Source: a virus
Direction: 5' to 3' (one strand)
IMG/VR virus record: IMGVR_UViG_3300023296_000219
Span: 1-57,915 of that record
DNA: 57,915 nucleotides
Shown here: positions 2,460 to 36,392 of the stretch, piece by piece
Layout of the letters: every line of letters begins with the position of its first letter
How positions within the stretch are numbered: the first letter of the stretch is position 1
The notes under the pieces: generated by a model
Databases searched by the model: none
Told to the model about the DNA's origin: nothing
The model's input: the letters and a program-made list of their open reading frames with translations, nothing else
Program-made: the position numbers and the translations under genes

Positions 2460-2473
2460 GTCTTAAATTCCTG

Positions 2474-3691: not shown

Positions 3692-3714
3692 TTTCTAATT
3701 ATCTCCGTTATTAT

Positions 3715-3722
3715 TATTTATC
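3715..3722 (-). promoter_or_regulatory. Late-type promoter box GATAAATA
   Basis: On the minus strand GATAAATA is followed by an 18-base predicted leader with CGGAGAT and then ATG at 3691. It is in the 31-base gap between genes. Confidence 0.6.
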
Positions 3723-4507: not shown

Positions 4508-7500
4508 TTAAGTAATGTCAGTCTGTAGAAATTGTGCAGATACCGTATTGCTGATCTGCAATGGATCTCCTTGAATAGTATTAAATTCATAGGAGTTCCA
4601 TGTCTGATTATAATATACACTAGATAGCTTGTTTGCTGACAATAAACTAAACACCTCTGTGTATTTTGGTATTACCGTTTGCATTGCTGTTCCATTTGCA
4701 CCTCTTTGTAAGCCACCGACAGAGTTGTTATCAAAATCTACACTAGCAAAGTTAATTTGCTCTCCATTGATGTACATTGTGGCACCTTCTATCGATGTAA
4801 TAGTCAACGAATCATTTACAGAGATATACGCTCCATCCGTGATCTTAAGGATCGGAGCTAAATTCTCGATTTCAACGCTGTACGTAGAAGAACTCAGGGT
4901 TACTCCAGTAGTAGTATTTAGAACAACAACGCTACTCAAAATAGTTTTCTCGGACGTTAAACCGATAGAGTAAATGCTATCAACCGGTGTTGGAGCTAAT
5001 ACATTTTGTATTATGCTGTTTGTTACTCTGGTCACATCTCCTACGAAGACATTTTGTGCTAGTACCTCAATCGACGCTGATAACCAAGTGCGTGTTTGTA
5101 CATTCGCTCTGTAAATTGATGCTTCCTGTGATGCGTTTACCAAGTTTAAGTAGATTTCTTCATTTGGAGTTGAATATGGAATCATGTTTGTCATGATAAC
5201 AACATCTCCAGGTGCAATATCAGTTAACAGACTCACTTCGTTGTCTGAACTAATTTTTAGTTTATTATTTGGCAAACGATAACCATTTACAGTGACCCAA
5301 AGCCTATCAACATTTGTTTGTTCCCACTGCGTCACATTCATTGTGCCAGTTTCATTTGTCAATGTTATTGTGGTCGTTGCTGATCTGGTCGCTCCAACAG
5401 AAAAGTCCACGCCGTTAACATCAATTGATTTTACATAATACGTTGTGCCCTGAATTAATCCACCTAAAACAGTCGCTCCTGCTTGCTGTCCTTGCTGAGT
5501 GAAGATCACCGGAGTATTCACTACCAAGTCCGCAGTTGAAGCAACTGTAATCAAATCATTAGTAACAGATGTTTCACTTGCTACAGTGGTAGTTAAGAAG
5601 AATGTCCCTTGTCTCCAAACATAGCCACCGCTTACGTATGTACTAATGCCAGTAACTGGGTAATTTACAGCATCGAGTCCAGGATTGTAAACTTGTGTGT
5701 AGATATCAAATCTAGTTGCATCTATTATTTTAACATAATAACTGTTGCCGTTCAGTCCCACAGATCCCAATGTACCATCAATTGTGCATAAGATGTCGTT
5801 TGCTAATGCATGTGGTATGCCTGTTGTAATTCGTGTTGTTGGAGATCCACCAACTTCTACTAGCATATTGCCCGAGCCGGGTGCTAATACAACTTGTGTG
5901 CCACCTGAGTCTTTAATAGTCGCAGTGGTTCCATCTAAGCTCACTGTATCAACAAAGTATATTGTACCTTGTTCCAAGTTACCAAAGTTAGTTCCTGTGA
6001 AGAAGATAGTCTGATCCACAACAAAGCCTACCGTACTAGTGAATGTTATGACGTTAGTAGTTACCGCTGTAGCAGTAGCATTTGTATTAGCTAATGGCGC
6101 GCTGACAGCAGTGTCTATATTGCTAATGTTAGCGACTGTGATAGCGTTTGAAGTACCGACCATTGATCCCGAATCAGTAGTCACAGTGACTTGGATTCCA
6201 CCAATTGACAGCGATACAGTAAATGTAGTTGCATCAATAATTTCTAATATGTAATACGTGATGCCTGCGGTAATTCCGCCAATGGTTGGATTACTAAACA
6301 CAATCGGCTCATCTACTGTTAATACGGAAGTGTCTGTACATGTTAAGGTGTCAAGTAATTCATCGTATGTAACAGTTATAGTAGCTGTACCTGTTCCTGT
6401 TCCAATACCTATACCAGTTGCGACAAAGACTGTCCCTGGATTACTATCTGCGGCACCAATGAGTGTAAAGTCAGTTGTACCTGTACTTACAATTATATAA
6501 GTAACACCTATATTAAAATCTCCAGCTACTGTAGTAGACGTTGCCGTACCTGTACCAGCGCCAATGCCAGTTGCCTCAAAGACTGTCCCTGGTGTGCTAT
6601 TTGCGGCTCCAATTAATGTGAAGTCTGTTGTACCTGTACTTACAATTGTATAAGTTACGCCTGCAACAAAGTTTCCTGCAGTTGAGGATAGGTCACCTTG
6701 ATTGTATGCTTGCAAAGTGGCTCTTGCCGTGCCTGTACCTGTACCTGCGCCAGTTGCCTCAAAGACTGTCCCTGGTGTGCTATTTGCGGCTCCAATTAAT
6801 GTGAAGTCTGTTGTACCTGTACTTACAATTGTATACTCAGTGCCTATATTAAAATCTCCAGCGAGTGTGGCCACACCTTGATCAAATGTACCTTCTGTGT
6901 GCGTGGTAGCAGTAACAGTTATTGTTGTGAATGCACTGCCTGCGATGCCCGAGATGCCATACTGAGATGTTAGATACTGTCTCATAGTATCATTGTAGGT
7001 TAGTACCGAAATACTTGCTCCAATAGCTGGAGGGGAGTTAAACAATATTGTGTTTAGGCCCGAGCTGATCGTGTACTGGGATCTAGTTTGTCTTAAGCCA
7101 GCAACTTCAACAATTGCATTCGTAATGTTGTTATCTCCAACATAGTTAGTTAACGCAAATGATGCACTTGAACCATTACCTGTAAATTCTTGTATTTCAG
7201 GAACTGAGTATCCGTATTGTGTTGCCGTAGCTGACTCACCGAACAATGAATACACGATGTAGTCGGTCTCGTTTGTATACGAATTAGGAGGACCGAAGAC
7301 AAGTTTTGCTTGTATACCATTTGGTTGTTGTGCTATAGCATAATCATTTGATACGTAAGCTGATACACCTGATGCGTCTATAAGTGTTGCTTCAGGGCCG
7401 CCTATAGTTTCAGAAATTGTAAATTCATCACCGTCAATGATAGCTTTAACATAATATTCTGTGTTCGGTGTAACATCTCCAAACATTGTCGCGGCAAAGT

Positions 7501-10500
7501 AGATTCTGCTACCTACAACCAAGCCAACAGTTGTACCTGTCGTGATTGCATTGTTACTTGCCTTAGTTCTACTGACTGAGTTAGTTCTACCAAGTACAAG
7601 TTTGTTACCGTTATGATAAACGATTGGATCAGTCCAGACAGTACCAGTACCAGTGTCAATATTAACTATCATTGAACCTGTTGCATCGACTAATATAAAT
7701 GTTGGACCAGCCTGTCCACTAACGATTGATTCTGATATAGTAATAGAACTGGTCGCAGTTGAAATTGATTTAACATAATAAGTGGTATCACCAACAATAT
7801 TTCCAAATACAACTCCTTGGAATGATATATCATCATTTATCGTGAAGTCAGTAACACTATCACACACTATTATATCACCGTCTGCTACGGTCTGTGTCGC
7901 TAGTGTTTCGATTGCATGTGAGCCTGTTCTTATAAGACCTGAACCTTGAAAGAAAGTTGAACTGTAATTACAGTTTACATAGATGTCATCAAATCCAGTT
8001 TCATCAACTGTTCTGATAGCGTCAGTGTCAGTTGATCCCTTGACCAGTTGATTACCATTGCCTACTTCATAAACATCAATACGCAAGGTTTGCATCGGCA
8101 AGAATGTCAGCGCAGTGTCTAGTGTTATTACTTTAGTCAACCAGTTAATAGTGTAATTGCTTTTTGCCAGGGTTGTTCCTAGTCCAGTAGTAGCATCGAT
8201 TATTTGCAGACTAAGATTTATTGGATATTGAACCATTTGATCGAAACTATAATCAACTTGGAATTCAGTTGTTGGTCCCATTATATTAGATACTACATTG
8301 TATCCTACGTGAGAGTATTCTGTAACGTCCCAAACTGTTCCAGGACGTGAAGCAACTGTCATTGTGAGATTATCTTTGATTAATCCAGGAACTAATTCTT
8401 CTGGACCGTAGCCGTATGAGAAATCTGCGCCCTTGACATCATAGATAGGTTCTGCTACAGTAAAGACACTGGTTGATATCCAGGTTACACCAGCATCAGT
8501 TGATTGTATGATTGTGTTATCATCACCAACTACAATAAATGCGTCAGTATCTGAATTATAGTTAATTCCGTTTAAGTCACTAGTTGTACCTGATGTTTGA
8601 GTTGTCCAAATCAATCCATCAGCCGATGTTTGTATTCGGCCGTTGTCTCCAACTGTCATCCAAATGCTATCAGCATAGATAACATCTCTTAATGTTTGAG
8701 CAGTAGAATCATACAGAGACATTCTGCACTGTAAAGGTATCACATCATCTATCAATGTGATTTGAGTTGACAATCCTACATTTGAGTATATCTCAACTTG
8801 AGTACTGCTTATTACTTTTACATAATACACTACGCCAGCAGTCAAAGAACTGAATGAATCCGAAAATACTATTTGGTCACTGTTCAGAAAACCTGCTGTG
8901 CTTGTAGAGTTGATTTGATCTGTCACTGAGTTAACAGAGACAACGCTAACCTCATTGACGCCTGTCCAAGATCCACCGTTGTTGGTTTGATAGACTACGT
9001 TATTTTCACCAACGACTAAGGCAATCGTTCCATCACTATCAACAGCGTTGAATCCGTTTGGAGTTAATGATGGGCCATCCTGCCAGAATTCACCAGTTGC
9101 TTCGTAACTGTAAACAATAATATTTGTGTCTATAAGTTCAGTCAGGCCGGTTGAATAATCCTTTTTCTTTCCCTTACCTACTGCAATGAATCCAGCAAAG
9201 CCACTCGTGTCAACTGATTGTACTCCGTATAGAGTAACTGCTAATTCAGTGTCATATGTTTTGCGTGAAAGCCAAGCATAACTATCATCGCTTTGTACGA
9301 TTTCATCACCAACTGCAACAAAATAATTATTTCTATATGCTACACTGTTTAATTGTACAGCGGGTATAGTTAATGCTGATGAGTTAGTTGTCCATATTAT
9401 GCCGTCACTGCTTCTATATATTGGTGTCGCTGTGTTTGTAGAAGACATGACATAAATGCCGGCGCCCAGTACAATATCAGTTATACCAACAACAGAACTG
9501 GCGATTTGTTTAATTGTCCAATTAGTACCTGCACCTGATGTTAGCAGTCCTGAGTAAGTGCTTAAATTAGACGATGCGAGATAATTCGTGCCGTCCCAAA
9601 GTACAGATGTAATTGAAACACCTGTTGGATAGAAGTCTTGGCCTTTTAATTCTGTATCTATGCTGTATTGATCTTCAGGTGCAAATGCATTACCTAAGTA
9701 AACCGCATTTGGATACGTCACGCCACTAAACAATTGAGTAAGGTCAAGGCCAGGCATGTTAACAGTCGGTCGATAATATCCTTCTACTCTATCCAGTGCA
9801 TTTAGGACACGATCATCTGATCGCAGTTCTTCCCATTTACCAATAACGAATTCGGTGTCATTGTTTGAGATAGTGCATCTGTAAACTCTGTTTAGGTATT
9901 TTACAATTGACTGATTGAAGTAGAAAGGTTCTGGTAAGAACGCATAGCTACCTGCTTTGGCAATAGTTAACCCAGTCACTGGTGTCACTGATGAGACTGC
10001 GACATTAATAACACTTCCACCTGGGTCTAATGATATTTGAATAGTATCATCAGCCGTATCTATTGTTTTAATATAATATGAAGTCGATGTAGTCGAGGCA
10101 AAGTATGGGTTACCACCACCGTCCACTGGGATAGTTCCCATGAATACTATTTCATCATTGACTGTAAATCCAGAAATGTCTGTCAGTTCTATCTTGTTTG
10201 ATGGTTCAAATGTTTCTACTACATCTGTGGATGTAAATCCTACAAAGTCAAATCCAATACCACTAACTGGAACAGTCATTCTTGCATCTGAGTAAACTTC
10301 AAGTTGGTTCGCAGTAGTGATCTTTAAGAAATACTTAGTAACTTTGTCTGCTGGGTCTCCGGCAACAATTAGACTTGTAATTGCACCAGTTGAACTAACA
10401 GTGTTGACTTCTAAAGTAGCATCATTCGCAGGAGTTGTTCCGCCTATTTCTGCACCTGATATTGTGATCTTGTTAGTAATTGCATAGCCTACGCCAGCAT

Positions 10501-13500
10501 TGCTTAGTATTGCTCTGTACCCACCTAACTTGAAAGCCATATCAACTATAGCACTTGTAGTTGGTGTTTGTGTTAAACTAAACTCCGTATTTGTGTCTGC
10601 GCTAATCGGTATGATTGCATCAGAGATGTCGTTTAATCGTACCCAAGGACTACCAGTACCTGTCATCACACCATTGTCTGTTAGTAAGTCATAAGCACTG
10701 CCACCTGGTGTTGTTGCAATAGTAAAGTGTGTTGCGTCTACTATTGCTTTGATGTAATACTGATCGCCAATGATAATGTTTCCTAAGCCAATGCCAGAGA
10801 ATATGATCGGCATATTAACCCACAACGATGAAGTATCTAAACAAGTGATTTCATTTGTTGATGACGAGGTAGTTGAGCATGAGACTGAGATGTAGGTAGT
10901 TTTATCATCTGGGTCTGAAAAATCTCTAACATAGTAAGTTGTACCAGTTGCTAGTCCTGAACCAACTGGAACAGTATTGAATTCTAATGGCATACCAACG
11001 TAAAAATTAATTGTTCCGTTATCTAAATTGCTTAACGCAATTCTATCGTTTGTACCTTCCCCAACATCACCCTCGAGAGTAGCATAACACGCTCTATCGA
11101 TTGTGTTTGATAATACACCAGTCGTAATATCAGAATAGAACGAAGAGGTATTATAAAGTGTAAACTGCTGACCAGTAACTTGTCCAGGTGCTATTGGCAA
11201 TGACACATTCATTGTCATTGCGCCGGTTGCTGTTGTTAGGTCCAACGTATCTTTTTGATTTCCTAGTAAAGCAGTAGTAGAAGTTGCTACGCCAGTGCCT
11301 GCGCCCACTCCGGTTGCAATGAACACTGTACCTACAGTATTATTGATTGCGCCTATGTCTGTGAAGATCGTTGTTCCTACAGTGACAATTTGGTATGTGT
11401 TACCAATCGTGAATGATCCCGCGTCAATAAGAAATGCATCAGATAATGCTAATACGCCAGCATTTATCTGTGTTGCTATTTTTAATTCAGTATCTGACAC
11501 AACTTCATTGACGTAGTATAAAGTACCCGATACAATTCCGCCATACGATAATGCCACTAAATTCGTAGATAAATTACGCATGTTGTTAAAGATAACTGCA
11601 TCGTTAACTGCGAAGCCTGTTGTACTAGACACCGTGACTACATTCGTGGATGTAGTTGTTCCTAAAACAGTAGTACTAACTGATGTCGCTGATGCACCGA
11701 GAGTGATAGTTTCATTATCAACCACTGTAGTTACATAGTAAACATCATCTTCTAAAATGCCACCGAAAGTCGTTCCGGTAAAGAATAATGGAATGCCTGG
11801 ATAGAAGCCATCAGTACCACCTGTACCTATAATACTTTGTGGGATTGTGATTTTATTTGATGTCGATGCTGTAGCTGTGACTATTAACATACCTGGATAG
11901 TTTAATGTCAAAACGGCCGTGTCTGTTACTTCACCTGCAAATGCATCTATACCAGATAACGGTGCCGTTGCATCGGTTACTACAAATGTTGTTCCACCAT
12001 TAGTGGCGCTGATTGTAAACTCAGTTATGCTATCAACAGACTTGACATAGTAGACTGTACCTGCTATAATATTACCTATAGTAGCACCAGAGAACTTAAT
12101 CGGCATACCGACAGTGAAGCCAATTGTTGAACCAGATGAGTTTACTGCACCTGTACCCTCATCATATGGATTCAATGTAATCTTGTTTCCGGTTGCGGTG
12201 GTGTTTGTAACTCTACGGGCAAAGGTAGTGTACAATATGTCTTGGTTATTACTAATATCTGCTATTTCAAATATTGCGCCTTCAGCCGAGGCCGCAATCG
12301 AAGTAATTGGAGGTTGCGATGCTTGCAATGATATAGAAGAAGACGATACATTCTCGCTATTAAAGTAGCCTCCTGCGAAGAATGATCCGTAATATACATT
12401 TGTTTCCCAATCGGTGATTTGACTTTTGTAAGTAGTTCTATCGAATCGCATCGCGAGTTGATTTTGTCTCACCGGTGATGAACTGGTAATTGCTGATGCT
12501 TTCGCGCCTATATTCAATGCGAAGTCCCCATCGACTGTACCAGCGACAAGTTTAACTCTGCTTGTTTCTGTTACTGCATCATTGTAATTTGTGTACAATG
12601 CAACAATCGTAGTCGGGTTTGTTTCAAGTACATTGATATAATACCATTGGTCGTTTACTAGCTTGCCAACTGCCGCGCCAGCGATTGCATCTTTGTATTG
12701 TATTAAATCACCTGTCATTATATTAGGAGCAAACAGTTTAATCGTATGTAATGTAGAGTTGATATCTGCGTTTGCAAAAAACAACTGGTCTGCGGGAGCA
12801 ATTCTGATTTCTGGTAAAACAGCGTACCCTTCGCCAGGGTTTATAACGTTCACGCTGATCACTGAACCAACGCTCATCACTGCTTCGAGTTGTGCTAATA
12901 CCCTAGGTTCTGGGTAGTTTGTTGTATCTATGTATGCTGTAATTTCTGGAGGTTCGATATAATTCTTGCCACCATCTAAAACTATTACTGCAGGAAGATC
13001 CATGAAAACTTTTGCGCCTGGTATGTGTGCAACTGCTGTAGTTCCGTTAATGCCGCGTTGTAGTCCACTCAGTAAATTTAATGCACGATCAACAGACGAG
13101 TAACCGATAATTTCTGTACCAATTTGAATTATTCCGTTAATCGGGAAGCCCTGTGCGTTGTCAACAAACAAGAATGTTGAACCAAGTGTCATGTATTCTC
13201 CCAATACAGTTAGTTGGTAATCTGGAATACCCGTGATTGACACGCCGTAATTATTATACCAGCTAGTATATTGAGGACTAGACCAAATCGGATCAATTGG
13301 TAAAAACTGTGCGTTCGAATTTGCATTTTGATAAACTAATTGAGGAGAAACATACGACAATGAACTAGTCTGATATTCGGCAGGTAGATCAAAATCAGTA
13401 ACATTGCCTTGCCAGGTATCTAACCCTGTGTACTTAAACAAGAAGTCTTTAATAACTACGTGATAAGGTTTTGCTTCGTTAATATAACCTGCTAAGAAGT

Positions 13501-16500
13501 CTTGGTTATCACCTTGATAGTTTTGAATTGGTTCTAAGTCTCTGATCACATGTGATACATCAACCAGAGATGTTTTGGTCAACCAAGGTAAGTAATTCTG
13601 TGATTCATCTGTTTCACTTTGAATGTATTCAAACAAAATAATCAACGACTTGTTTCTAAATGATACAAGTTCATCAATATAAATTTGTTCGTTCAACGCA
13701 CGAATAATCCAACGTGTTTCTTCACTCGGATAATCATCATATGTGTCTGTATCAAAGAAATTCTCTCCGAAGCCTGTTTTGCCTGCGGCGTAATCCCATA
13801 AATATATTTTGAATTTAATCGTGCCATTTTCTAACCCGATGCGAGTCCACACACCATTACCATCAAACCGATATACTTCCCACTTGCCATTTCCGTTTGT
13901 TTCAACAGTCACAATAGTACCTGCATCAACCACAAGTGCGGCCAAGTCTGCATAGATTGCTACTGATGCTGTTGACTTAGTGTTATTATTGTACTGTCCA
14001 ACTGGGTTGGTAGTAGGCAGCCACCAGTTAACATATTCCCAGTAAGTTGTCGTGTCATAATATGTACCTGTCTTGGACAGGTATGTCGCGTCTTGTCGTG
14101 TTTCAGCTATTGGAAATTGTGCAAGTACTGTGTTTGCATAATTTAAGTAATTTTCTAAGCCTAGGAATCTACTAAAGAAGAAACTCTGTCTTGGTCGAGA
14201 CAATACACCTGACTGAACTGCTTTCGGTAAATATGGATTCGGTACTACTTCTCCAATTTCATCCACCCCTGACAGCGAATCTAATAAACGATCATATAGT
14301 CCACGTGGGCTGTTTGAAGGTGTTTGTACGCCAAACTTTGGTAGACCTGGTAAGAAGTCATCAGAGAAGTTTGCTCTAATTAAATTAAATTCTTGATGAG
14401 AAGGATCATCGTTGTTTCCTGTTGCAAAGCCTATATGGAAAACACTGTCAGTATTATTAACATATTCGCCTGTGTTATATAGAGCAAATGTGTTCTGCAA
14501 TAGTGGAACAAAGTATGCGATACCAGACAGTCTTGGATTTCTAATATAGTTTTCTAATGTAGTATCACTGAGCGTTTTGCCTTCGGCCGACATTACTGTG
14601 TCAGTATTGAGGACCCAGAAATAGTAAGTAGGGATAACGGTGTTTGATGCATTCAATGATGCTTCAACACTATATTGTGTTAGACTCCTAGGTGTTCCAG
14701 GACCTGTGTATCTGTCAGGAGAAACATTACTTCTAACCCACGTGCAAACAGAAACTCGCGAACCAGGGAAGACTCTTCCCCAATGTCTAGCATTGTACTC
14801 TACATCATTTTGGTGATAGTTTAACCATCTCACATTAGTTGTATCAAACCAAAGATTTCCTACTTGTCGAATCCCCCAAATAAGTCCTGCATTAACGCCA
14901 CCAAGTTCTGCATTGTAGTATGCTGGATCGACGTTGTTAACAAAGTCTAAGTTTTCTCTGACTGCTCCTAGCAATTTACCTTGCATAGGATCGATGTAAT
15001 CTAAATTGATTAACGTGTCATTTGTTTCTGCACTATAAATTTGTGCGTTTTGTATTTTATTAATATCAACCACCGCTGATGATTGTCTATGCAATGCCCA
15101 ATCCTTAAGGCCGCTTGCATTTTCATATACTGTGATTTGACCTTCTAAATCTCCGTAACTTAAGTTTGGTGTACCGATAACAACTTTGTTGTCAGAAAAA
15201 TCTAATGATGTGCCGTATAATGGTTGGAAGCCATAGTTTTGATCTGTGTTGTTTATGTTTTGTGCATAGACAAATTTACCAGAATTAGCGACTGAGCCAT
15301 TGTAGTTAGCAAGATAATCATACATGTATACTGCACCAGCGTTGTCCCACGTATCGACAAAGCGTGTTGCGTTGTTATCAAATAATGTATCATTGTCTAA
15401 ATTCGAGTCATCTATAAAGTCGAATGTCGTTCCTAAATAGCGAGTTGATGCTGGAGCTGAAATAACAACTGAGTCACTTTCATTAAACTCAATTGTATTA
15501 CCAAATAATGTTCTGCTCTCATTGTGAGGGGCAGTAATAACTTGAGTGTTTGTGTAAACAGGGATGCCTAATTCACCGAATGTATCCGTGTTTGGCGCCT
15601 GTAACAGAAGTTTTTCGTTAATCAATGCTAAATTAGTATTAGTAACCGAGATGACAAGTTTGTTATCTACCGTTGCAGATGCGACTACGTTTGTTATAGA
15701 GTACTCGTTAATAAGGCTTGCAATTTCTGTTGCAGTTGAACCACTCACTAGTTGGACAAGATAACCGTTGATTAATAATTTTCTGTCAGCGGTTAGAGTG
15801 CAATCACCAGTGCCGATTACTGTGCCATACTTGCCACCGCCATTTGTATATCTGTAGACTGATCCATCAGTCTGTACTTCACCTGCAATTCGAATTTCTC
15901 CAGGTGCTCCTACTAATATTTCGCTTCCGAACGATGTCATGGCATTATCATAGCCAAACTGTGTGCCTACTCTTTCGTCGAGTGAAGAGTTCATTGTTTG
16001 AACCCAAGTGAACACATTGCTACCAACAGTAACAATATCACCTGCTATAAGTGATCCGAAGTATCTAAAGATTGTTCCGATAGATGCATAATTGTTGTCA
16101 TCGACAAATGTGCCATTGACTGAAACGTGTAACGAATCTGCTTGATCATATAGTATAAAATCAGCGGTAGCGTCATCGACAAGTGTGATCACATCAATAG
16201 TTGATCTGGTTGTTTTAAGTGAGAACGATTGTGCTGAAATATATTGCATGTAGTATACTTGATTAGGGGATATACCCGAATCACCATAAGTTCCACCTAC
16301 ATTGAACACGACAGGTCTATTTGTAAAGTCTGCCGTTATCGCAGTGCCTACAAAGGTGATTACGTTGCTGGTTACATCGTTTGCTGTTCTAGCGACATGC
16401 AATGTGGTCCACGCCTGATTAAAATTATACGGTTGTGCTGGCTGAGCATTGTATTGTGTTTCAATGTTTTGAACCAAACGTGAATAGATATAGTTGCTAC

Positions 16501-19500
16501 CCCAATTTGATTTTGCAGTCGGTGATGCTTTGTTAGGAGCACTAACAGAAATTGTATCTCCGTTGTTGTCAGTTGATATGGCATAACCAAAGTTGTCGCC
16601 TGTAATAGCACTGACAGGTGCAGTTGAGCCTTCTATCGTAGTGGGTAAAGCCTGATATGTTATTTGATTTGCTGTTCCTGTACCGGAACCAACGCCAGTT
16701 GCAACAAAAACAATACCGACTTTGTTGTCTAATGCACCGATTGCTTTCCAATCTGTTGTGCCCACGCTTGTAATTTCATATGTTTCAGTTGTTTCAAAGA
16801 ATCCAGCAAGTAATGGTATGTGTTGTCTACGATATGCACGAATTCTACCACTGGTCGTTGTGTCACCAATATAGAGCCATTCTTTATCATCACTTAGGGC
16901 AATGCTATCAGCATAGTTACCAGCGAATGTAATTGTTTGTAGCAATGTAATGTCATCGCTTAAAACTGTATCATTTAATGTGTAGATTCTAACTTTTGAT
17001 TGCGCTAAGCCTGATGTACCGTTGTCTGGTTCAGTAATAACAAACAGATTACCTGAATATTCAATTTTACTACCGAATGACAGACTACCTGTTAGTGTGC
17101 TACCTACATCTAAATCAAATTCTTTAGTAGCAGTGTTGTATCCATAACGATAGACCTTGCCTGCTGTCGAATCACCTATTAAATAACCCATTCTAGCTGT
17201 ATATGCTACTGCACTACCAAATGTTTGTCCATCAGCACGATTTAAATTCTTTGTTAAATCATAATTAATAGACTTTCGATAAACGCCCCACTGACCATCT
17301 GTTGCTTCGTCTACCCAAACAGTGTTTTGCGTAAACTCTGCTTCGTTTAAATCCATTGTGTTGATATCAGCAGGTTTAGCTACTCTTTGATCAACAAATG
17401 TCAAGCCGATTCCGTTGCCAGCTAAGTTCTGTGGTTGCTCTGCTAGTGTTAGATTGATTGTTACTTCAGTTAGAGTATTAACACGTGTTATGATATGATA
17501 TCCATTGACCGTAGATGATACGTTAATGAATGACACTGGATCTAATTTTGACAAACCGTGAGGATTAGCAAATGTAATTGTAGTTGTATTATCTGTGTTG
17601 GGTGTCACTGCTGTTACTCTGCCCACTGGCTTCCATGCATAAACTCTCCAGTTTTCTTTGAAGTTTGCTAACCAAACAAAATCTCTTACATAAAAATCAT
17701 TGATTGGTACTGGAATAGCTTCTGCATTTCTTGCAGTTGGTAAATTTGCATAGTAGTATGATGCCATTTTAACATCATTGTAGTTGACAAACCCGGCTGT
17801 AGGATATAAACTAAGAGGAGATTCTACTCCAAGCGTCGATAAGATTTGCGGCGATGTAATAGGTCTTGAATAATTAAACAAGTTTCCAAGAGGCACTTCT
17901 TGTTGAGAGCCAATAGTCGGTGTACCAGTTGTCAGTGATACGATAGAAGGATTACCTGTTAGTTTTGTTTCATTCAATTTGAAATCAGCAAAGTTATTAT
18001 TTAATGTGCCACCGAATTCACCTGACAGGATTCCCCAGTTTTCGAAAACATCATAATCAATTCCGCCTGTTGCTAATTTAGCACCCTTAAAGGCAGAGAT
18101 TGAATTTGGCGTACCCTTTGTTTTAATTAAGTTTTTATAGACATTGACTTGTGTAATGTCAGTAAGATTAATTGTAGCCAGATAATCTCTTGGTCTAAAT
18201 CCAATTAGAGAGAAAGACAATTGGTCTGCATCTGATTCTAAATTTGCTTTAGTACTGTCATAGTACAACGTACTTTCGTAAGAACGAGTTGATGAGTTAG
18301 GTAATAAGCCTTTTTGTATCTGATCGTAATCTGTTTCAACCCAATCAAGTTCTGCAAATACTGCCGATGGTTCTATTGTTTTGATCGCTGTCCAATATTT
18401 GGCTTTGTAAGTTACGATTGTGCCCTTAGCATATTTCATAGCTGGTACCCATTCAACAACATTGTCTTGGTTGAGAATGAAGCCTGATGCGAACACTGTA
18501 CCGTTCCATTCAGCGGTCTTGCTTCCTCGAAGGTAAATGCGAGACTGTCGCAGACCAGTAATTAAGTTGTAAAGTACATCATTGAATACAGTTGTGTTGT
18601 CGAATACGATGCCGTGTTCCATGTTGCTTAGATTAAACTGTCCGTATGACATTGTATCACCAGAGTTCAAAGTTTTAACTTCGAATTTAGTATCTAATCT
18701 TTCAATCGCCAAGTCTTTGATTGCAATGGGATATGCATTTTGATTCAATAAGAAGTTGCTTTGTTCAATAGTTAATGGCTGAACAATCTCACTATCTTTT
18801 TCAATTTTTAAAGATTGTGCTGATGGGTTCACTGTGATCAACGATCCATTTTCCCAATTAAATTGCGTCCAGTAGAGATATTCTTTGATCATTATATCCC
18901 AGTTGATTTCTACTCCATTATCGATAGAGTCAAATACCATACCTTTGCGAGTTAACCAATTACCGTAACTTGCAAGAAATTGTGCGAGTTCTTGTATAGT
19001 ATAGAACTGTGTTCCATATGGAATAAGTTTTTCTTTTGTTTCGGTTTGTGTATATGCATTTGCCACTTTTACCGAAGCATTATCAACTGCAATCGTTCTA
19101 TTATTGCTGATTGTTATAGGTTGATCTATTGTAAAGTATGCTTGACTTTGCGAGTTACCGAATACTTTCCATCCATTGGATACTAATTGAATCACAACAC
19201 TTGAATATTTCAAGTCCCCACTAGGTTGGTTGTCATGCAATAGAACATTGTAACTTTCGTCGGGTAAAAGTAATGATGCATTGTCAGAATTTGGTGTTGC
19301 TTTCTCGACAAAGAATTTTAATAATGTTTTGTCACTGAAGCCTGCTAGTCTATAAATTAGACGAACATCTACGTTTCTTAACTGACTAGTGATCTCGGTG
19401 GTTGCATCAGTACCTTGTTGTTTTTCAAAATCCACAATCCAGTTGATGTAACTCGTTTTTGCTGTACCGTCGCCATAGATTGATATCGCACTAATATCTA

Positions 19501-22500
19501 AATGACTTCTATCATTTGCTAGATATTGATTGAATTCTGTGCTATACTTGTAATTATCTAGGTCTGCGCCCAAGTTAAAGAAGTCTGCTGGTTTGGTTAA
19601 TGCAAATATTCGCATCAAATCAAAAGGATAAGATGCACTTCTTCTGTATGAAAATTCTGCTGGTGCGTCATCGCCGACTTTCCAATTTTTCTGGAATGTG
19701 TTAGTATCGTAATTTCCCAACAGCGCATCAAACGGTGACAGCAATGTTCCATGCTCATCAACTGGTAAGATTTTAGATAAACCGGTGCGTTTCAATTCAG
19801 GTACGGTTACTGATAGTGCAGTACTACCGTTATAGATGAGACCAGCTTCGATGTCTGTCCACATAATACCGTTTTGATTGGTGTAAGGTGCGGGACCATA
19901 CTGTGCAGTCCACCATGATGGTATTTCGGAGAAGCCTAACATCTCCCAAGGGGCCGTATTTGGCTGTGATGTGCCGTAGAAGTATTCATAGACACCTCTC
20001 CAATAACCTTGAGTAATTGGGGTTTCTGTTAGTCTGTTCCCTTGTTCTGAATAGTTAAAACTAAACTGGTTTGTTTTTGTATAGCCTGTTTGAGTTTTGT
20101 AATCAATTCTATTTTGACCAGCCCAGTTTAAAAACTGCGAACTGTAAATTTTTAAATAGTCTTCGGTAGAGTATGTTGATGCTCTGAAAAAGCCCGGTAA
20201 CACTTCGTATGCTTGTATAGGAACGACAGTGCTTAATTTAATGTTGTTGTATATTCTAGTTTCAAATTCCAACAGTGCTTGATCTCTGAAGTCAGTCAGA
20301 CCTACTGCAGGTGTGTAGTCTAAAGAATACAATGAGGTATAAGAACCATCATGTCCTCTTAACATGTAAGTAGGTGTTTGATAGTTAGAATCTAATACAA
20401 CTTCAGGTTTCCATTTAGGATACATGCCTAACTTACTAGGCGTATTGGGTACAAACGATCCATATGTTTGTGTGTACTCATTGATCGTGATCTTGTCACC
20501 AGCAATTAAGTCTTCTGTAACTGTCAATGAAGGTGCAGATGTTGAAACTGTATAGTCTACATTTCGCACTAATTGAGTTGTCTTGGTTACGCCCGATACT
20601 GTTCTTATAAGATAAACTAAAACTCCGTTATAGTTTGCTTTAGTGAAGTCATATGTTTGCGACAATGGATAGATAGACTCTTGCAATGCATTGGCGAATG
20701 TATAGATGTTTGACTTATGTGGTGCTTGCGACGGAAGCATATCACTCCAGAAAAACGAACCAGTTTCAGATTTTGCTGAAGTAAGTTTTTCTAATGCCGT
20801 GTCTAATATATAACCTGGATCAAATCGTTGGTCCCAATCGATGTCATTGACTGTTTTAACCAATTGTTGTTTGTACTGAACATACTGATGTGCATTAAAT
20901 TGTAATGCATCGAACAAATTATGATTTGATCTGCGCAGGAACACACTTGGCAATACCACCGCCGCAGAGTTTTGAATAATTTTAGTGCCATATGGAGCTA
21001 GATTACCTAAATCTCTGTAATTGTTTGAGCCAAAGACTGCTCCTGCTGTGCCTGGAGCATTAACGAATATGTCTTGATATTGTGATCTAATGTCACCAAG
21101 GTCTGCTATCTCTAAATCAGCATTGAATGGGTTGTTGCTTAAATTTATAGGTATGCTATAATAAGCAGTTTCCGATGTTTGGTTGCTCAACAACAAGATT
21201 TGTATAGGGGTATCTGTTGTCGGAGCTGTGTTTAATGTCACTGTAGTTTCAGTTGCAGTTGATGTTATTGTGTATGCACTAGGTAACTGGTATACGTTAT
21301 TAATATATACTTGGGCAGATGGCCACTTCTCAGTAATAGTAACATCATCTGCTAATACTTGAACGTCACACGTGAAAGAGGCTGTGGACCCTGTATTATA
21401 TTCTAGTTCAAATATTTGATACTGAACTGAGGGGGCAATGGCAGTTTGCCAGCCCAATTCACGTGTTTTCGTTGTACGATCAGAGTAATTATATACATAA
21501 CCCGTATTGACTTTTGCCGTGACAGGTGTCGTTCCAGTCACATAAGAAAAGATGTCAACATTCAATGATATATCAAAGCTAATATCGCCTGCGTTACTAA
21601 TATCAGAATAACGAACTGGGAATCCTAATATTGGGTCATTAGTGCCAACACCAACACCATATGCAAACAATTTGTTACCCAAAAACGAAGTTCCTTGATA
21701 AATTGTTGCATCGCCAAACGAGATTCCATCCTTATCATAGATGTCGAAAAGAGGAGCCTGGTTAACAGTTGATTTTTGCTGTGCTTCTTGCCATGATAGA
21801 CCGTCAAACCAGAATGTAGAACCTTGATAGTTGAATCCTCTGAGGGCTACAGTTTGATTGTCTGCATTAATAGGAGAGTCTTCTGATTCTGTTAATGTAA
21901 TAACAGCTGGTGATCCAAACGAGATCACTGAAAAGCCCACGACCCATATTTTGTTTTTAACTTGTAAATTGGTGTCTGATGCGAAGACGATTCTCGCTCC
22001 ACTGAACAACGCATAGTTGTTAACTGTTGTGCCGCTACCAACAATAGATGCTACAGTAGTGCTTGCGAAAGTAGATGGTGAAGACCAACCGACAGTCAGA
22101 ATTGTATTATCTCCACTGACTACACTTGTCGTAATCGTAGTATTAATCGGCAACAAGTTTGTTGAATCAGTAATGTATTGCCCAACTTGTAACGGCGAAG
22201 TAATGTCCGTGGTTGCAATGGTAATAGTAGTGGAGGTTGCGCCGGAGCTTGCCGCAATGGTCGCAGTGTATAATGTATATGATTCTATGTCAGGATAATA
22301 TTGTGCTTGATTGGCTACTTTATCAAAGGCGTTGGTGGTTCTTGTGTCTACGAAGTCAACTGGTGCTTTTGCTTCCGACCCTGAATCGAATAGTTTTAAA
22401 TTTGGATAGAATTCAACAATCGGTCTTTTTGCTTTTGCGGCACCCGTAGCATATGTTGTAATAATTGTAGGGTCGTTATTATACGTAGCAGTAGCATTTA

Positions 22501-24397
22501 TAACATCAACATGGAACCATCTGTTAGAGCGTGACCATGCATTTCTATTAATTGCATCTCTGGCTATCGTGATATAATCTGGAGTTACTGGAATAAACAA
22601 CTCTGTGTCAAAGTTGCCGATTGAATAATTCAAACTATCATAAGGTATGTAGTTTGTTCCAGTAAAGTCTTCTGGTACTGTTAGGTCTGTGGTAGATACA
22701 AGTTCAATTGCTTCACCTACGCCGGCTACATAATATTCACCAGTGAGGTAACTTGTTGGGCTAACATCACCATCAAATTGTATTTTTAATCCATTGGTAA
22801 ATACTACACCATTGGTTGATGTAAATGTTTTTTGTCCTATTATATCAGTAGTAACATCTAATGTGTTCGTCAGGTTACTATCAATTAATTTTATCATACC
22901 AACTTTGTTTGCAAACGTGCCGTCTTGATAGTACAAAGTGTCTAGTAAAGCCGACAGATAAGGAACACGCAACAAAATACCAACAAGACTTCTGTAAAAA
23001 TCTAAACCGATGTATGCAGTTCCGAAGCTTACCGTAATCTTTTCGTCAGATGGGATTACTCCAGCTGGGATTAAACGAATTGTTGGATCAGATGAATCAC
23101 CAACATACGTAATTGTATAGTAGTTTTCACTAACGTTAGTATAGAAGCCTTCATCAAACAAGCCTTCATTAACGTTTCCAATCATCGTTCCTGTGTTAGC
23201 AGTAAGAGTTTGTGCGGGTCCATTAAGTGTTAACGAGACTGTAAATTCTGTTGCACTAACGATAGATTTTACATAGTAAATTGTGTCGAGGGATAGTCCA
23301 CCTAGCAACGGTGCGCCCGCTGATGATGAAAACGTAATTGTTTGATTGGGAACCAGATCAGTAGTAACACCTGATGTAATTAGTTTATTTGTTCCACCAG
23401 CGACTGTTTCTGTGATTTCCAATGTAACTGCAGGAACCAAATCAGGAGATGTTAAATTAACATCATAGTTTGCTCCGCTCTCATCAAAGAATGATGATAC
23501 GAAACCTACTTCATTTTCCTCTCCTGTATCATAGAACATCACAGATAGATTTTCAAGTGACGTTACGCCATCTATGCTTCCTAGTTCGCTAAGAGTCTTG
23601 CCGTTAACGTCAGCAAATAATGCAGTGCTTACTACGCCAACTAAGTTGTTGCCTGGAAACAAAAATTGATCTTGTGCATTTCTGGCGGGAACTGTAAATG
23701 AAACATAACCATCTGTAGCACCGTTGTTGTTAACACCTAGAACTTGTCTAGTATCCTGTGCACCTGATAACCCTGTAGTTCCAGGTACGCCCTGAATCCA
23801 AAATTGAGTTTCTTGATCAACTGCGAAACGATATGTACCGCCACGAAGTAAGGTAACAGTTGGATTAAGTGTCCCTGAAGATGCGCCTAACAATTTTACA
23901 TTGTAAGCACTTGCCGTATCAGTGACTTTATAGTCTGTTTCTGAGAAGACAATAGCAGACGCAACTGTGACCACTGGTGGTCCTGCAGGTATCCAGTAGT
24001 ACTGGTTAAAATTAATTAGTTTATCTAATGCCGTGAAAGAATCCCAAGAATAGAATTGGCTTTCGAACAATCGACTATTGTTAAGCGTGACTCCGCCCTT
24101 AAGTTTAATCGCATCAATCAACTCTGGGTAACTTAGAAAGTCTTTTGCAGATGCTTGATTGTTGTTTAAGAATGCGACACCGGGAGACAACTGGTAATCG
24201 GTTCTCGTTTTGTTTGGCTCAGTTACATAGTAATCTTTTGCGTTGACACCATAACCAAACTCGCTTCCCACATAACCTTGCAATCTTTCTGTCTTTGGAG
24301 GATTAACTAGTTGGTCAAGTGTTGCTCCCAAGAACTGTGTATTCGTGGAAGTTTTGAATATCTCTGGTAAAAAATCTACTGTTCTTATTCTTGACAT
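4508..24397 (-). CDS. Giant baseplate/tail-associated protein, 6,629 residues, two predicted beta-propellers and repeat modules
   Basis: One uninterrupted frame of almost 20 kb. Residues 1-150 form a conserved-looking head (FLPEIFKTSTNTQFLGATLDQL; YYWIPAGPPV). Residues about 2390-3080 carry seven FG-GAP-like blades (FGSAVAY, FGSKIEY, YADSIALSDD, FGYAISTDNNG, SFGSEILVGAPG, FGNTIEF, SLDFSDNKVVIGTP), as in a seven-bladed beta-propeller. Residues about 4920-5330 look like a second propeller of BNR/YCF48 type (YFVAVGDEI, SSDGIIWT, STDAGVTW). YYVK modules cluster at about 4110-6330, with five GTTDFTLIGA-type modules at about 2549, 4346, 5861, 5922 and 5976. A GLQRG-NGT motif occurs near 3782 and 6566. 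It follows gp6, the gp7 slot of T4, so a baseplate wedge/appendage role is likely. AAAGG lies 16 bases before the ATG. Function beyond structure is inferred. Confidence 0.8.
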   Translation of the reverse strand: MSRIRTVDFLPEIFKTSTNTQFLGATLDQLVNPPKTERLQGYVGSEFGYGVNAKDYYVTEPNKTRTDYQLSPGVAFLNNNQASAKDFLSYPELIDAIKLKGGVTLNNSRLFESQFYSWDSFTALDKLINFNQYYWIPAGPPVVTVASAIVFSETDYKVTDTASAYNVKLLGASSGTLNPTVTLLRGGTYRFAVDQETQFWIQGVPGTTGLSGAQDTRQVLGVNNNGATDGYVSFTVPARNAQDQFLFPGNNLVGVVSTALFADVNGKTLSELGSIDGVTSLENLSVMFYDTGEENEVGFVSSFFDESGANYDVNLTSPDLVPAVTLEITETVAGGTNKLITSGVTTDLVPNQTITFSSSAGAPLLGGLSLDTIYYVKSIVSATEFTVSLTLNGPAQTLTANTGTMIGNVNEGLFDEGFYTNVSENYYTITYVGDSSDPTIRLIPAGVIPSDEKITVSFGTAYIGLDFYRSLVGILLRVPYLSALLDTLYYQDGTFANKVGMIKLIDSNLTNTLDVTTDIIGQKTFTSTNGVVFTNGLKIQFDGDVSPTSYLTGEYYVAGVGEAIELVSTTDLTVPEDFTGTNYIPYDSLNYSIGNFDTELFIPVTPDYITIARDAINRNAWSRSNRWFHVDVINATATYNNDPTIITTYATGAAKAKRPIVEFYPNLKLFDSGSEAKAPVDFVDTRTTNAFDKVANQAQYYPDIESYTLYTATIAASSGATSTTITIATTDITSPLQVGQYITDSTNLLPINTTITTSVVSGDNTILTVGWSSPSTFASTTVASIVGSGTTVNNYALFSGARIVFASDTNLQVKNKIWVVGFSVISFGSPAVITLTESEDSPINADNQTVALRGFNYQGSTFWFDGLSWQEAQQKSTVNQAPLFDIYDKDGISFGDATIYQGTSFLGNKLFAYGVGVGTNDPILGFPVRYSDISNAGDISFDISLNVDIFSYVTGTTPVTAKVNTGYVYNYSDRTTKTRELGWQTAIAPSVQYQIFELEYNTGSTASFTCDVQVLADDVTITEKWPSAQVYINNVYQLPSAYTITSTATETTVTLNTAPTTDTPIQILLLSNQTSETAYYSIPINLSNNPFNADLEIADLGDIRSQYQDIFVNAPGTAGAVFGSNNYRDLGNLAPYGTKIIQNSAAVVLPSVFLRRSNHNLFDALQFNAHQYVQYKQQLVKTVNDIDWDQRFDPGYILDTALEKLTSAKSETGSFFWSDMLPSQAPHKSNIYTFANALQESIYPLSQTYDFTKANYNGVLVYLIRTVSGVTKTTQLVRNVDYTVSTSAPSLTVTEDLIAGDKITINEYTQTYGSFVPNTPSKLGMYPKWKPEVVLDSNYQTPTYMLRGHDGSYTSLYSLDYTPAVGLTDFRDQALLEFETRIYNNIKLSTVVPIQAYEVLPGFFRASTYSTEDYLKIYSSQFLNWAGQNRIDYKTQTGYTKTNQFSFNYSEQGNRLTETPITQGYWRGVYEYFYGTSQPNTAPWEMLGFSEIPSWWTAQYGPAPYTNQNGIMWTDIEAGLIYNGSTALSVTVPELKRTGLSKILPVDEHGTLLSPFDALLGNYDTNTFQKNWKVGDDAPAEFSYRRSASYPFDLMRIFALTKPADFFNLGADLDNYKYSTEFNQYLANDRSHLDISAISIYGDGTAKTSYINWIVDFEKQQGTDATTEITSQLRNVDVRLIYRLAGFSDKTLLKFFVEKATPNSDNASLLLPDESYNVLLHDNQPSGDLKYSSVVIQLVSNGWKVFGNSQSQAYFTIDQPITISNNRTIAVDNASVKVANAYTQTETKEKLIPYGTQFYTIQELAQFLASYGNWLTRKGMVFDSIDNGVEINWDIMIKEYLYWTQFNWENGSLITVNPSAQSLKIEKDSEIVQPLTIEQSNFLLNQNAYPIAIKDLAIERLDTKFEVKTLNSGDTMSYGQFNLSNMEHGIVFDNTTVFNDVLYNLITGLRQSRIYLRGSKTAEWNGTVFASGFILNQDNVVEWVPAMKYAKGTIVTYKAKYWTAIKTIEPSAVFAELDWVETDYDQIQKGLLPNSSTRSYESTLYYDSTKANLESDADQLSFSLIGFRPRDYLATINLTDITQVNVYKNLIKTKGTPNSISAFKGAKLATGGIDYDVFENWGILSGEFGGTLNNNFADFKLNETKLTGNPSIVSLTTGTPTIGSQQEVPLGNLFNYSRPITSPQILSTLGVESPLSLYPTAGFVNYNDVKMASYYYANLPTARNAEAIPVPINDFYVRDFVWLANFKENWRVYAWKPVGRVTAVTPNTDNTTTITFANPHGLSKLDPVSFINVSSTVNGYHIITRVNTLTEVTINLTLAEQPQNLAGNGIGLTFVDQRVAKPADINTMDLNEAEFTQNTVWVDEATDGQWGVYRKSINYDLTKNLNRADGQTFGSAVAYTARMGYLIGDSTAGKVYRYGYNTATKEFDLDVGSTLTGSLSFGSKIEYSGNLFVITEPDNGTSGLAQSKVRIYTLNDTVLSDDITLLQTITFAGNYADSIALSDDKEWLYIGDTTTSGRIRAYRRQHIPLLAGFFETTETYEITSVGTTDWKAIGALDNKVGIVFVATGVGSGTGTANQITYQALPTTIEGSTAPVSAITGDNFGYAISTDNNGDTISVSAPNKASPTAKSNWGSNYIYSRLVQNIETQYNAQPAQPYNFNQAWTTLHVARTANDVTSNVITFVGTAITADFTNRPVVFNVGGTYGDSGISPNQVYYMQYISAQSFSLKTTRSTIDVITLVDDATADFILYDQADSLHVSVNGTFVDDNNYASIGTIFRYFGSLIAGDIVTVGSNVFTWVQTMNSSLDERVGTQFGYDNAMTSFGSEILVGAPGEIRIAGEVQTDGSVYRYTNGGGKYGTVIGTGDCTLTADRKLLINGYLVQLVSGSTATEIASLINEYSITNVVASATVDNKLVISVTNTNLALINEKLLLQAPNTDTFGELGIPVYTNTQVITAPHNESRTLFGNTIEFNESDSVVISAPASTRYLGTTFDFIDDSNLDNDTLFDNNATRFVDTWDNAGAVYMYDYLANYNGSVANSGKFVYAQNINNTDQNYGFQPLYGTSLDFSDNKVVIGTPNLSYGDLEGQITVYENASGLKDWALHRQSSAVVDINKIQNAQIYSAETNDTLINLDYIDPMQGKLLGAVRENLDFVNNVDPAYYNAELGGVNAGLIWGIRQVGNLWFDTTNVRWLNYHQNDVEYNARHWGRVFPGSRVSVCTWVRSNVSPDRYTGPGTPRSLTQYSVEASLNASNTVIPTYYFWVLNTDTVMSAEGKTLSDTTLENYIRNPRLSGIAYFVPLLQNTFALYNTGEYVNNTDSVFHIGFATGNNDDPSHQEFNLIRANFSDDFLPGLPKFGVQTPSNSPRGLYDRLLDSLSGVDEIGEVVPNPYLPKAVQSGVLSRPRQSFFFSRFLGLENYLNYANTVLAQFPIAETRQDATYLSKTGTYYDTTTYWEYVNWWLPTTNPVGQYNNNTKSTASVAIYADLAALVVDAGTIVTVETNGNGKWEVYRFDGNGVWTRIGLENGTIKFKIYLWDYAAGKTGFGENFFDTDTYDDYPSEETRWIIRALNEQIYIDELVSFRNKSLIILFEYIQSETDESQNYLPWLTKTSLVDVSHVIRDLEPIQNYQGDNQDFLAGYINEAKPYHVVIKDFLFKYTGLDTWQGNVTDFDLPAEYQTSSLSYVSPQLVYQNANSNAQFLPIDPIWSSPQYTSWYNNYGVSITGIPDYQLTVLGEYMTLGSTFLFVDNAQGFPINGIIQIGTEIIGYSSVDRALNLLSGLQRGINGTTAVAHIPGAKVFMDLPAVIVLDGGKNYIEPPEITAYIDTTNYPEPRVLAQLEAVMSVGSVISVNVINPGEGYAVLPEIRIAPADQLFFANADINSTLHTIKLFAPNIMTGDLIQYKDAIAGAAVGKLVNDQWYYINVLETNPTTIVALYTNYNDAVTETSRVKLVAGTVDGDFALNIGAKASAITSSSPVRQNQLAMRFDRTTYKSQITDWETNVYYGSFFAGGYFNSENVSSSSISLQASQPPITSIAASAEGAIFEIADISNNQDILYTTFARRVTNTTATGNKITLNPYDEGTGAVNSSGSTIGFTVGMPIKFSGATIGNIIAGTVYYVKSVDSITEFTISATNGGTTFVVTDATAPLSGIDAFAGEVTDTAVLTLNYPGMLIVTATASTSNKITIPQSIIGTGGTDGFYPGIPLFFTGTTFGGILEDDVYYVTTVVDNETITLGASATSVSTTVLGTTTSTNVVTVSSTTGFAVNDAVIFNNMRNLSTNLVALSYGGIVSGTLYYVNEVVSDTELKIATQINAGVLALSDAFLIDAGSFTIGNTYQIVTVGTTIFTDIGAINNTVGTVFIATGVGAGTGVATSTTALLGNQKDTLDLTTATGAMTMNVSLPIAPGQVTGQQFTLYNTSSFYSDITTGVLSNTIDRACYATLEGDVGEGTNDRIALSNLDNGTINFYVGMPLEFNTVPVGSGLATGTTYYVRDFSDPDDKTTYISVSCSTTSSSTNEITCLDTSSLWVNMPIIFSGIGLGNIIIGDQYYIKAIVDATHFTIATTPGGSAYDLLTDNGVMTGTGSPWVRLNDISDAIIPISADTNTEFSLTQTPTTSAIVDMAFKLGGYRAILSNAGVGYAITNKITISGAEIGGTTPANDATLEVNTVSSTGAITSLIVAGDPADKVTKYFLKITTANQLEVYSDARMTVPVSGIGFDFVGFTSTDVVETFEPSNKIELTDISGFTVNDEIVFMGTIPVDGGGNPYFASTTSTSYYIKTIDTADDTIQISLDPGGSVINVAVSSVTPVTGLTIAKAGSYAFLPEPFYFNQSIVKYLNRVYRCTISNNDTEFVIGKWEELRSDDRVLNALDRVEGYYRPTVNMPGLDLTQLFSGVTYPNAVYLGNAFAPEDQYSIDTELKGQDFYPTGVSITSVLWDGTNYLASSNLSTYSGLLTSGAGTNWTIKQIASSVVGITDIVLGAGIYVMSSTNTATPIYRSSDGIIWTTNSSALTIPAVQLNSVAYRNNYFVAVGDEIVQSDDSYAWLSRKTYDTELAVTLYGVQSVDTSGFAGFIAVGKGKKKDYSTGLTELIDTNIIVYSYEATGEFWQDGPSLTPNGFNAVDSDGTIALVVGENNVVYQTNNGGSWTGVNEVSVVSVNSVTDQINSTSTAGFLNSDQIVFSDSFSSLTAGVVYYVKVISSTQVEIYSNVGLSTQITLIDDVIPLQCRMSLYDSTAQTLRDVIYADSIWMTVGDNGRIQTSADGLIWTTQTSGTTSDLNGINYNSDTDAFIVVGDDNTIIQSTDAGVTWISTSVFTVAEPIYDVKGADFSYGYGPEELVPGLIKDNLTMTVASRPGTVWDVTEYSHVGYNVVSNIMGPTTEFQVDYSFDQMVQYPINLSLQIIDATTGLGTTLAKSNYTINWLTKVITLDTALTFLPMQTLRIDVYEVGNGNQLVKGSTDTDAIRTVDETGFDDIYVNCNYSSTFFQGSGLIRTGSHAIETLATQTVADGDIIVCDSVTDFTINDDISFQGVVFGNIVGDTTYYVKSISTATSSITISESIVSGQAGPTFILVDATGSMIVNIDTGTGTVWTDPIVYHNGNKLVLGRTNSVSRTKASNNAITTGTTVGLVVGSRIYFAATMFGDVTPNTEYYVKAIIDGDEFTISETIGGPEATLIDASGVSAYVSNDYAIAQQPNGIQAKLVFGPPNSYTNETDYIVYSLFGESATATQYGYSVPEIQEFTGNGSSASFALTNYVGDNNITNAIVEVAGLRQTRSQYTISSGLNTILFNSPPAIGASISVLTYNDTMRQYLTSQYGISGIAGSAFTTITVTATTHTEGTFDQGVATLAGDFNIGTEYTIVSTGTTDFTLIGAANSTPGTVFEATGAGTGTGTARATLQAYNQGDLSSTAGNFVAGVTYTIVSTGTTDFTLIGAANSTPGTVFEATGIGAGTGTATSTTVAGDFNIGVTYIIVSTGTTDFTLIGAADSNPGTVFVATGIGIGTGTGTATITVTYDELLDTLTCTDTSVLTVDEPIVFSNPTIGGITAGITYYILEIIDATTFTVSLSIGGIQVTVTTDSGSMVGTSNAITVANISNIDTAVSAPLANTNATATAVTTNVITFTSTVGFVVDQTIFFTGTNFGNLEQGTIYFVDTVSLDGTTATIKDSGGTQVVLAPGSGNMLVEVGGSPTTRITTGIPHALANDILCTIDGTLGSVGLNGNSYYVKIIDATRFDIYTQVYNPGLDAVNYPVTGISTYVSGGYVWRQGTFFLTTTVASETSVTNDLITVASTADLVVNTPVIFTQQGQQAGATVLGGLIQGTTYYVKSIDVNGVDFSVGATRSATTTITLTNETGTMNVTQWEQTNVDRLWVTVNGYRLPNNKLKISSDNEVSLLTDIAPGDVVIMTNMIPYSTPNEEIYLNLVNASQEASIYRANVQTRTWLSASIEVLAQNVFVGDVTRVTNSIIQNVLAPTPVDSIYSIGLTSEKTILSSVVVLNTTTGVTLSSSTYSVEIENLAPILKITDGAYISVNDSLTITSIEGATMYINGEQINFASVDFDNNSVGGLQRGANGTAMQTVIPKYTEVFSLLSANKLSSVYYNQTWNSYEFNTIQGDPLQISNTVSAQFLQTDIT
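6395..6840 (-). repeat. Tandem GTTDFTLIGA modules inside the giant gene, with an 87-bp perfect direct repeat
   Basis: Three neighbouring modules of about 54-61 codons. Bases 6566-6652 and 6749-6835 are identical over 87 bp at an offset of 183 bp (61 codons); the third, near 6415-6500, is diverged. Two more remote copies lie near 11295-11400 and 16680-16770. Perfect identity at DNA level, including third codon positions, points to a recent duplication. Confidence 0.85.
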
Positions 24398-36370: not shown

Positions 36371-36392
36371 AGAAGACTGGAAAAAACTAACT

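Follow-up and report, generated by a model that had tools for sequence, protein, structure and literature searches.

What kind of protein does a phage encode in a single open frame of almost 20 kb? The window, the whole 57,915-base stretch of DNA analysed here, is an entire IMG/VR virus record and is itself part of a larger genome. Its giant open reading frame occupies positions 4508–24397 on the minus strand, the strand to which the window coordinates of the protein's domains below also refer. The frame takes up 34% of the window, in line with the third originally estimated. It begins with ATG and runs through 6,629 codons without an internal stop, whereas base composition by itself predicts about 438 stops in frame. 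The product, which falls into family PHROG 10938, has a mass of 718 kDa, a pI of 4.3 and a cysteine content of 0.2%.

The extraordinary length of the frame, together with a C-terminal 2,900 aa almost without homologue in characterised phages, could point to an assembly artefact or to several fused genes. That reading can practically be dismissed, as the orthologues suffice to refute it. When IMG/VR was scanned with residues 3090–3779, 62 loci at 45–76% identity were returned, and 34 IMG/VR loci besides that of the window (21 when a 90% identity cut-off is applied) carry complete orthologous ORFs of 5,279–6,616 aa, on other contigs and with identical start, end and order. An 'xRTxxFLPxIF' N-terminus is common to nearly all 34, and a scan with an N-terminal alignment found at least 587 stretches encoding a relative. 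Artefact or fusion is also opposed by strong purifying selection on the gene: pairwise dN/dS over the full length is 0.04–0.13, of which the closer pairs (0.04–0.10) are the better guide, synonymous distance being near saturation in pairs that include the window. No DNA-level tandem repeats were found. One relative from the clade sits in a 333,115-base contig, which places these phages in the jumbo size class. The analysis thus confirms, as had been proposed, that the uninterrupted frame is one gene, a real and conserved gene of an aquatic jumbo phage clade.

The gene lies within a cluster of T4-type baseplate genes, which bears out by gene position the proposed link of the protein to the baseplate. 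Directly upstream on the same strand, separated from the giant ORF by 18 bases, is the gene for the wedge subunit gp6 (24416–27781, 1,121 aa; PHROG 10646, E 1e-250). It is preceded by genes, also on the minus strand, for the wedge protein gp25 (27830–28279; Pfam GPW_gp25, 36.8 bits, cutoff 27.2), a gp5-type hub protein (29461–31932; PHROG 13211, E 5e-33) and a gp53-type wedge subunit (34100–34423; PHROG 7145, E 5e-20), the last matching in position the Vibrio phage 2.275.O gene annotated gp53. A gp47/gp46-type pair was assigned to 36342–39172 by synteny with RaK2 and Cassandra, and a gp55-type sigma factor is encoded nearby on the strand opposite to the giant gene. On the downstream side of the giant a gp8 homologue was not identified; the next gene (3723–4343, minus strand) is a conserved one belonging to PHROG 11259 (E 4e-64). 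The order gp53, gp5 hub, gp25, gp6, giant is common to the window, Cassandra, RaK2, Phosso, Vibrio 2.275.O and CBB, and the gp25–gp6–giant portion is also present in Atu_ph07. Of six jumbo relatives studied closely, five have the giant directly after gp6. The exception is SCTP-2, where the giant homologue does not adjoin gp6, which is found elsewhere in the genome. Two other genes of the window deserve mention. A 405-aa protein (2474–3691) has a sub-threshold match to Peptidase_G2, an autoproteolytic IMC domain, and may be a tail fibre or spike protein bearing a self-cleaving chaperone. A 221-aa protein (39298–39963) carries a C-terminal tail of repeated 'ENNS.PPENNSTSS' units.

The protein contains a conserved core composed of residues 1–145, 518–698, ~800–2160 and 3100–3717, with ~23–36% identity to giant proteins of jumbo phages. 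Its N-terminus (residues 1–145, 23963–24397) has the pattern 'IRTLxFLPEIF..N.QFL.ATLDQLV' and is 29–36% identical to homologues of the RaK2, PA5oct and Atu_ph07 types. The longest block, residues 1300–2160 (17918–20500), is recovered in all six jumbo-phage homologues at ~24–27% identity over 840–1,240 aligned columns, and a second block (residues 3100–3717, 13247–15100) follows at 24–30% identity to those homologues and 45–76% to the IMG/VR relatives. The PHROG 10938 profile matches the N-terminal segments with E-values from 2e-66 to 3e-123, the latter at residues 1300–2160, and residues ~3132–3425 with E 1.5e-47. Within the clade, identity is 50–73% over most of residues 1051–2150. Past residue 3717, BLAST gave no alignment to the jumbo homologues.

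PHROG 10938, whose annotation is 'virion structural protein' of RaK2-like, PA5oct-like and Atu_ph07-like jumbo phages, includes RaK2 ORF070w (3,326 aa), Cassandra_0442 (3,857 aa), Atu_ph07 AUZ94962 (4,449 aa), a Phosso protein (4,555 aa) and CBB_236; in all, 60 phage records match the core family. These giants share with the protein of the window their core and their position after gp25–gp6. The protein of the window, however, is 1.5–2 times as long, has an FG-GAP propeller in place of other sequence at ~2160–3100, and ends in ~2,900 aa, including a BNR propeller, that are unrelated to the homologues by BLAST. Mass spectrometry places the family in virions. CBB_236, an orthologue of the giant, gave 21 unique peptides and adjoins the wedge protein CBB_237 (PMC5259590); phAPEC6 gp245 (381.88 kDa), taken as an orthologue from its size and its neighbour, the wedge protein gp244, gave 17 virion peptides (PMC7247149). 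That the giant is a phage protein, as first proposed, agrees with the presence of these core orthologues in virions.

Sequencing errors or gene-calling may have fragmented the family in annotated records: in Klebsiella phage K64-1 (NC_027399.1), the giant homologue is split into 12 and 8 'hypothetical protein' features under two matches. In SCTP-2, a second giant ORF (ORF 141, 3,096 aa; L003:4633–13923) stands immediately before the giant homologue, and its C-terminus resembles, by eye, a von Willebrand factor A domain.

Structural comparison of the N-terminal region was less informative. AlphaFold modeling of residues 1–700 gave pLDDT values of 30–45 across residues 1–128, which may therefore need a partner. 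Foldseek with this model, unreliable at 1–128, found no baseplate protein in the PDB; the laccase (low probability) and endosialidase (TM ~0.1) matches were set aside as uninformative. A search of solved structures with the N-terminal sequence yielded only kinases, matched by chance, and one with the profile yielded no match. Weak Pfam matches in the window's sequence, such as NrfD_2, HVO_0513_N and Flagellin_IN, were likewise judged to be chance or minor. Within the core, residues 1982–2005 (18383–18454) resemble the chitin-binding type 3 family CBM_5_12 (14.6 bits, cutoff 26.2), as do the core homologues of Cassandra (E 0.001) and Phosso (E 4e-5), both also below the cutoff. Sugar binding, as originally suggested, would be compatible with this stretch and with the predicted propellers.

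Between the two large core blocks lies a predicted FG-GAP β-propeller (residues 2388–3098, 15104–17236). Seven blades were assigned by hand from strands and motifs, at ~2388–2435, 2438–2490, 2494–2530, 2598–2646, 2806–2855, 2960–3032 and 3054–3098, with insertions following blades 3, 4 and 5. The count equals that of the original prediction, which had also foreseen large insertions. Scanned alone, residues 2340–3110 match Pfam FG-GAP_2 with 28.0 bits (cutoff 23); within a 1000-aa segment the score is 22.3 bits, just under the cutoff. Among the family members, 28 of 33 match FG-GAP_2 (best E 2e-12). A family profile of the region found propellers as its best PDB matches (YbhE, E 1.7e-4; integrin alpha-4, E 0.02), and profile matches between blades are weak except for blades 4 and 5. 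The AlphaFold model of residues 2340–3110 is confident (pLDDT 82, pTM 0.86), and its Foldseek matches are mostly β-propellers, comprising in the PDB Elp2, integrins alpha-X, alpha-M and alpha-6, and WD40 proteins. In BFVD, FG-GAP proteins encoded by giant viruses and phages are among the hits, and the top one is a fragment of an uncharacterised Caudovirales protein (3e-23). Whole-length TM-scores to single structures are low, 0.1–0.45 when normalised by the query, as large insertions would cause. Taken together, profiles and modeling support a predicted seven-bladed FG-GAP propeller with large insertions. It shares the repeat motif, assigned blade number and predicted fold of FG-GAP_2/integrin-type propellers (PF14312), but differs from them in having its blades split by insertions of about 70–160 residues.

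The site that holds this propeller is variable in the wider family. The spacer between the core blocks (~2160–3100) measures 940 aa in the window, ~100 in RaK2, 260 in Vibrio 2.275.O, 320 in Cassandra and 390 in SCTP-2; in Atu_ph07 and Phosso it reaches ~1,530 aa of what look like 'GxGY..P.V' repeats, not FG-GAP. Within the sampled clade (33 aligned members) the FG-GAP propeller is kept, and sequence conservation is lower in the propeller segments than in the flanking core. Because other lineages carry different or almost no sequence at this site, the propeller looks, from these comparisons, like an exchangeable surface module that would be dispensable for the role of the core.

The long tail past residue 3717 holds β-sandwich-like 'YYVK..' repeats. 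A small domain with the pattern 'G.I.I..E.I.Y....RG..GT' (residues 3728–3791, 13025–13216) has a second copy of its motif near residues 6533–6580. A second, BNR/Ycf48-type propeller is likely at residues ~4925–5313 (8459–9625), where it is supported by sequence profiles and has seven candidate blades and one insertion (~5150–5236). Here the original prediction is borne out as probable, on weaker evidence than for the first propeller. The family profile of the region finds Ycf48 structures (8am5, E 2.5e-4; 5ojp, E 4.7e-3) and 13 of 26 family members match PSII_BNR (best E 8e-7), but the window's own sequence scores 16.4 bits, below the cutoff of 27. In this score, and in having only one canonical Asp-box, at residue 5299, the region departs from the Ycf48/BNR propellers of PF14870, with which it shares the repeat pattern and the profile matches. 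Single-blade profiles cross-match other blades, chiefly 3, 5, 6 and 7. Limnohabitans phage DC31 also carries BNR-like repeats, as do tail fibre proteins of the Caulobacter phages KSC and Percy.

Further towards the C-terminus, a motif scan revealed three near-identical 'VSTGTTDFTLIGAANSTPGTVFEATG' repeats (residues 5846–6003, 6389–6862). Relatives show 81–94% gaps at residues 5851–6000, that is, the repeats are mostly absent from them, and the triplet looks like a recent lineage-specific expansion. Diverged copies of the unit were noted at residues 2545 and 4340. The protein closes with a conserved C-terminus (residues 6533–6629, 4511–4801), ending 'DPLQIS.T..A.FL' and shared by most complete relatives.

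In T4, the position after gp6 is that of gp7, the baseplate wedge initiator, which at 1,032 aa is about one sixth as long as the giant. Comparison by hhalign of a 22-sequence alignment of the giant family with seven gp7 sequences gave no homology to the T4-type core. The Pfam models Gp7_helical, Gp7_5th and Gp7_6th have no match in the giant, and in a control the Pfam Gp7 models do detect T4-like gp7s. Apart from a small domain at residues 3728–3791 of the giant, two gp7 HMMs run against all ORFs of the window gave no convincing match, leaving no other gp7 candidate among these ORFs. By position, then, the giant would be the gp7 of this phage; by sequence, a gp7 identity is without support.

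A protein of such size in the gp7 position is not new, as precedents exist in the Kyanoviridae; neither these nor the known family of the core, PHROG 10938, figured in the original prediction. The gene after gp25–gp6 in these cyanophages encodes 3,007–6,619 aa and is mostly annotated as baseplate wedge initiator (Bellamy gp111, 4,067 aa; S-B05, 4,024; S-SSM7, 3,007; ACG-2014f, ~4,225; S-RSM4, 3,515, lying between g6 and g8; S-SZBM1, 6,619). The S-SZBM1 protein, S-SZBM1_208, is present in virions, with 71 peptides, 13.5% coverage and an emPAI of 0.41, compared with 0.23 for the adjacent gp6 (PMC9146016). The Kyanoviridae giants and that of the window share size class and position after gp25–gp6. 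The Kyanoviridae proteins, however, have an N-terminus homologous to T4 gp7 (hhalign P 94%, E 1e-7), which the protein of the window lacks, and no homology between it and the Kyanoviridae core was found beyond residues 3728–3791. This small domain, common to both groups as 'IDDE.I.Y...RG..G', is the only stretch that aligns with the cyanophage gp7 N-terminus (hmmsearch 3e-6 to 3e-7; hhalign P 69%), and its motif, which recurs elsewhere in these proteins, is no proof of orthology. The domain matches also differ: in the S-SZBM1 giant they are to YHYH, laminin-G-like and phycobilisome-like domains, and no propellers were detected. In the S-SZBM1 record (PP650_gp068; L166:3249–23108), these are YHYH at E 1e-29, Laminin_G_3 at 7e-17 and Phycobilisome at 9e-12, the last above the cutoff; a cyanophage baseplate protein thus appears, from its sequence, to carry a light-harvesting-type domain of the host. 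S-SSM7 (L162:3989–15749) has two near-adjacent giants of 3,007 and ~3,000 aa, both annotated gp7 baseplate wedge initiator, with a small gene in between, which suggests a duplication.

From its gene position, the conservation of its core, the detection of its homologues in virions and the parallel with Kyanoviridae we infer a role in the baseplate wedge, and we consider it probable that the giant is a gp7-position wedge scaffold that displays propellers and β-sandwich repeats for putative host adhesion. The lack of detected gp7 homology, the low-confidence model of residues 1–128, the failure of the 1–700 model to match a baseplate protein and the gene arrangement in SCTP-2 speak against it. 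The giant could instead act like a receptor-binding fibre, as a tail-fibre or adhesin protein with no more than a genetic link to the wedge genes and no part in the wedge scaffold. Propellers, a CBM-like stretch and β-sandwich repeats are what one typically sees in adhesins, the BNR repeats are similar to those of the Caulobacter phage fibres, and gp7 homology was not detected in the giant. Such a protein is nevertheless quite unlikely, since the conservation of the core greatly exceeds what a receptor-binding fibre would be expected to show, gp6 directly precedes it in all but one of the six relatives, and the ORFs of the window offer no other gp7.

A separate question is whether the propellers bind anything on the host. 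They may be purely structural, making contacts within the protein or the baseplate, a possibility to be taken seriously if an unlikely one. β-Propellers often act as protein–protein scaffolds, no catalytic or ligand-binding residues were identified in these, and the FG-GAP propeller is retained in the sampled clade. The greater variability of the propeller segments relative to the flanking core, and the different contents of the insertion site among jumbo lineages, instead suit an exposed module. Domain type, variability and module exchange suggest ligand binding.

For the wedge scaffold that we prefer, the following arrangement is envisaged. A gp7-position wedge protein of a T4-related jumbo phage would have grown as modules were inserted into it and appended to it. 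Its conserved core, N-terminus included, would sit in the wedge with gp6, with about one copy in each wedge and six in the virion. Both propellers, FG-GAP and BNR/Ycf48, and the β-sandwich repeats would project from the baseplate and form its outer face, adhering to glycans or proteins of the host surface or to neighbouring tail proteins. The estimate of about six copies derives from the architecture of the T4 wedge and, weakly, from the S-SZBM1 emPAI value. Our best guess of about six copies would, if one is present per wedge, amount to 4.3 MDa, a considerable mass for a baseplate though a minor one beside that of the capsid. The original suggestion of a major virion mass component or long appendage is therefore not upheld, and nothing in the analysis shows an appendage.

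Both jumbo phages and cyanophages repeatedly have proteins of 3,000–6,600 aa encoded next to gp6; these occur in virions and mostly still bear the label 'virion structural protein' or 'hypothetical'. Giant wedge-adjacent proteins were thus already known, and it is the propeller-bearing variant that is new. In the present clade the length can be traced to a conserved core, a single insertion site of variable content and a long tail rich in repeats. The defined domains at residues 2340–3110 and 4880–5345 can now be expressed for binding assays, and the baseplate wedge as an adhesion platform becomes a testable idea. A fuller picture, tentative and doubtful when taken whole, is that the wedge protein of this clade is a modular adhesion platform, in which about six 718-kDa copies present a ring of FG-GAP and BNR propellers around the baseplate and lineages swap a module at a fixed site to change host recognition. 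If true, such protein length would have arisen in parallel in Kyanoviridae and RaK2-related phages on unrelated cores, and baseplates, besides tail fibres, would evolve as exchangeable receptor-binding arrays.
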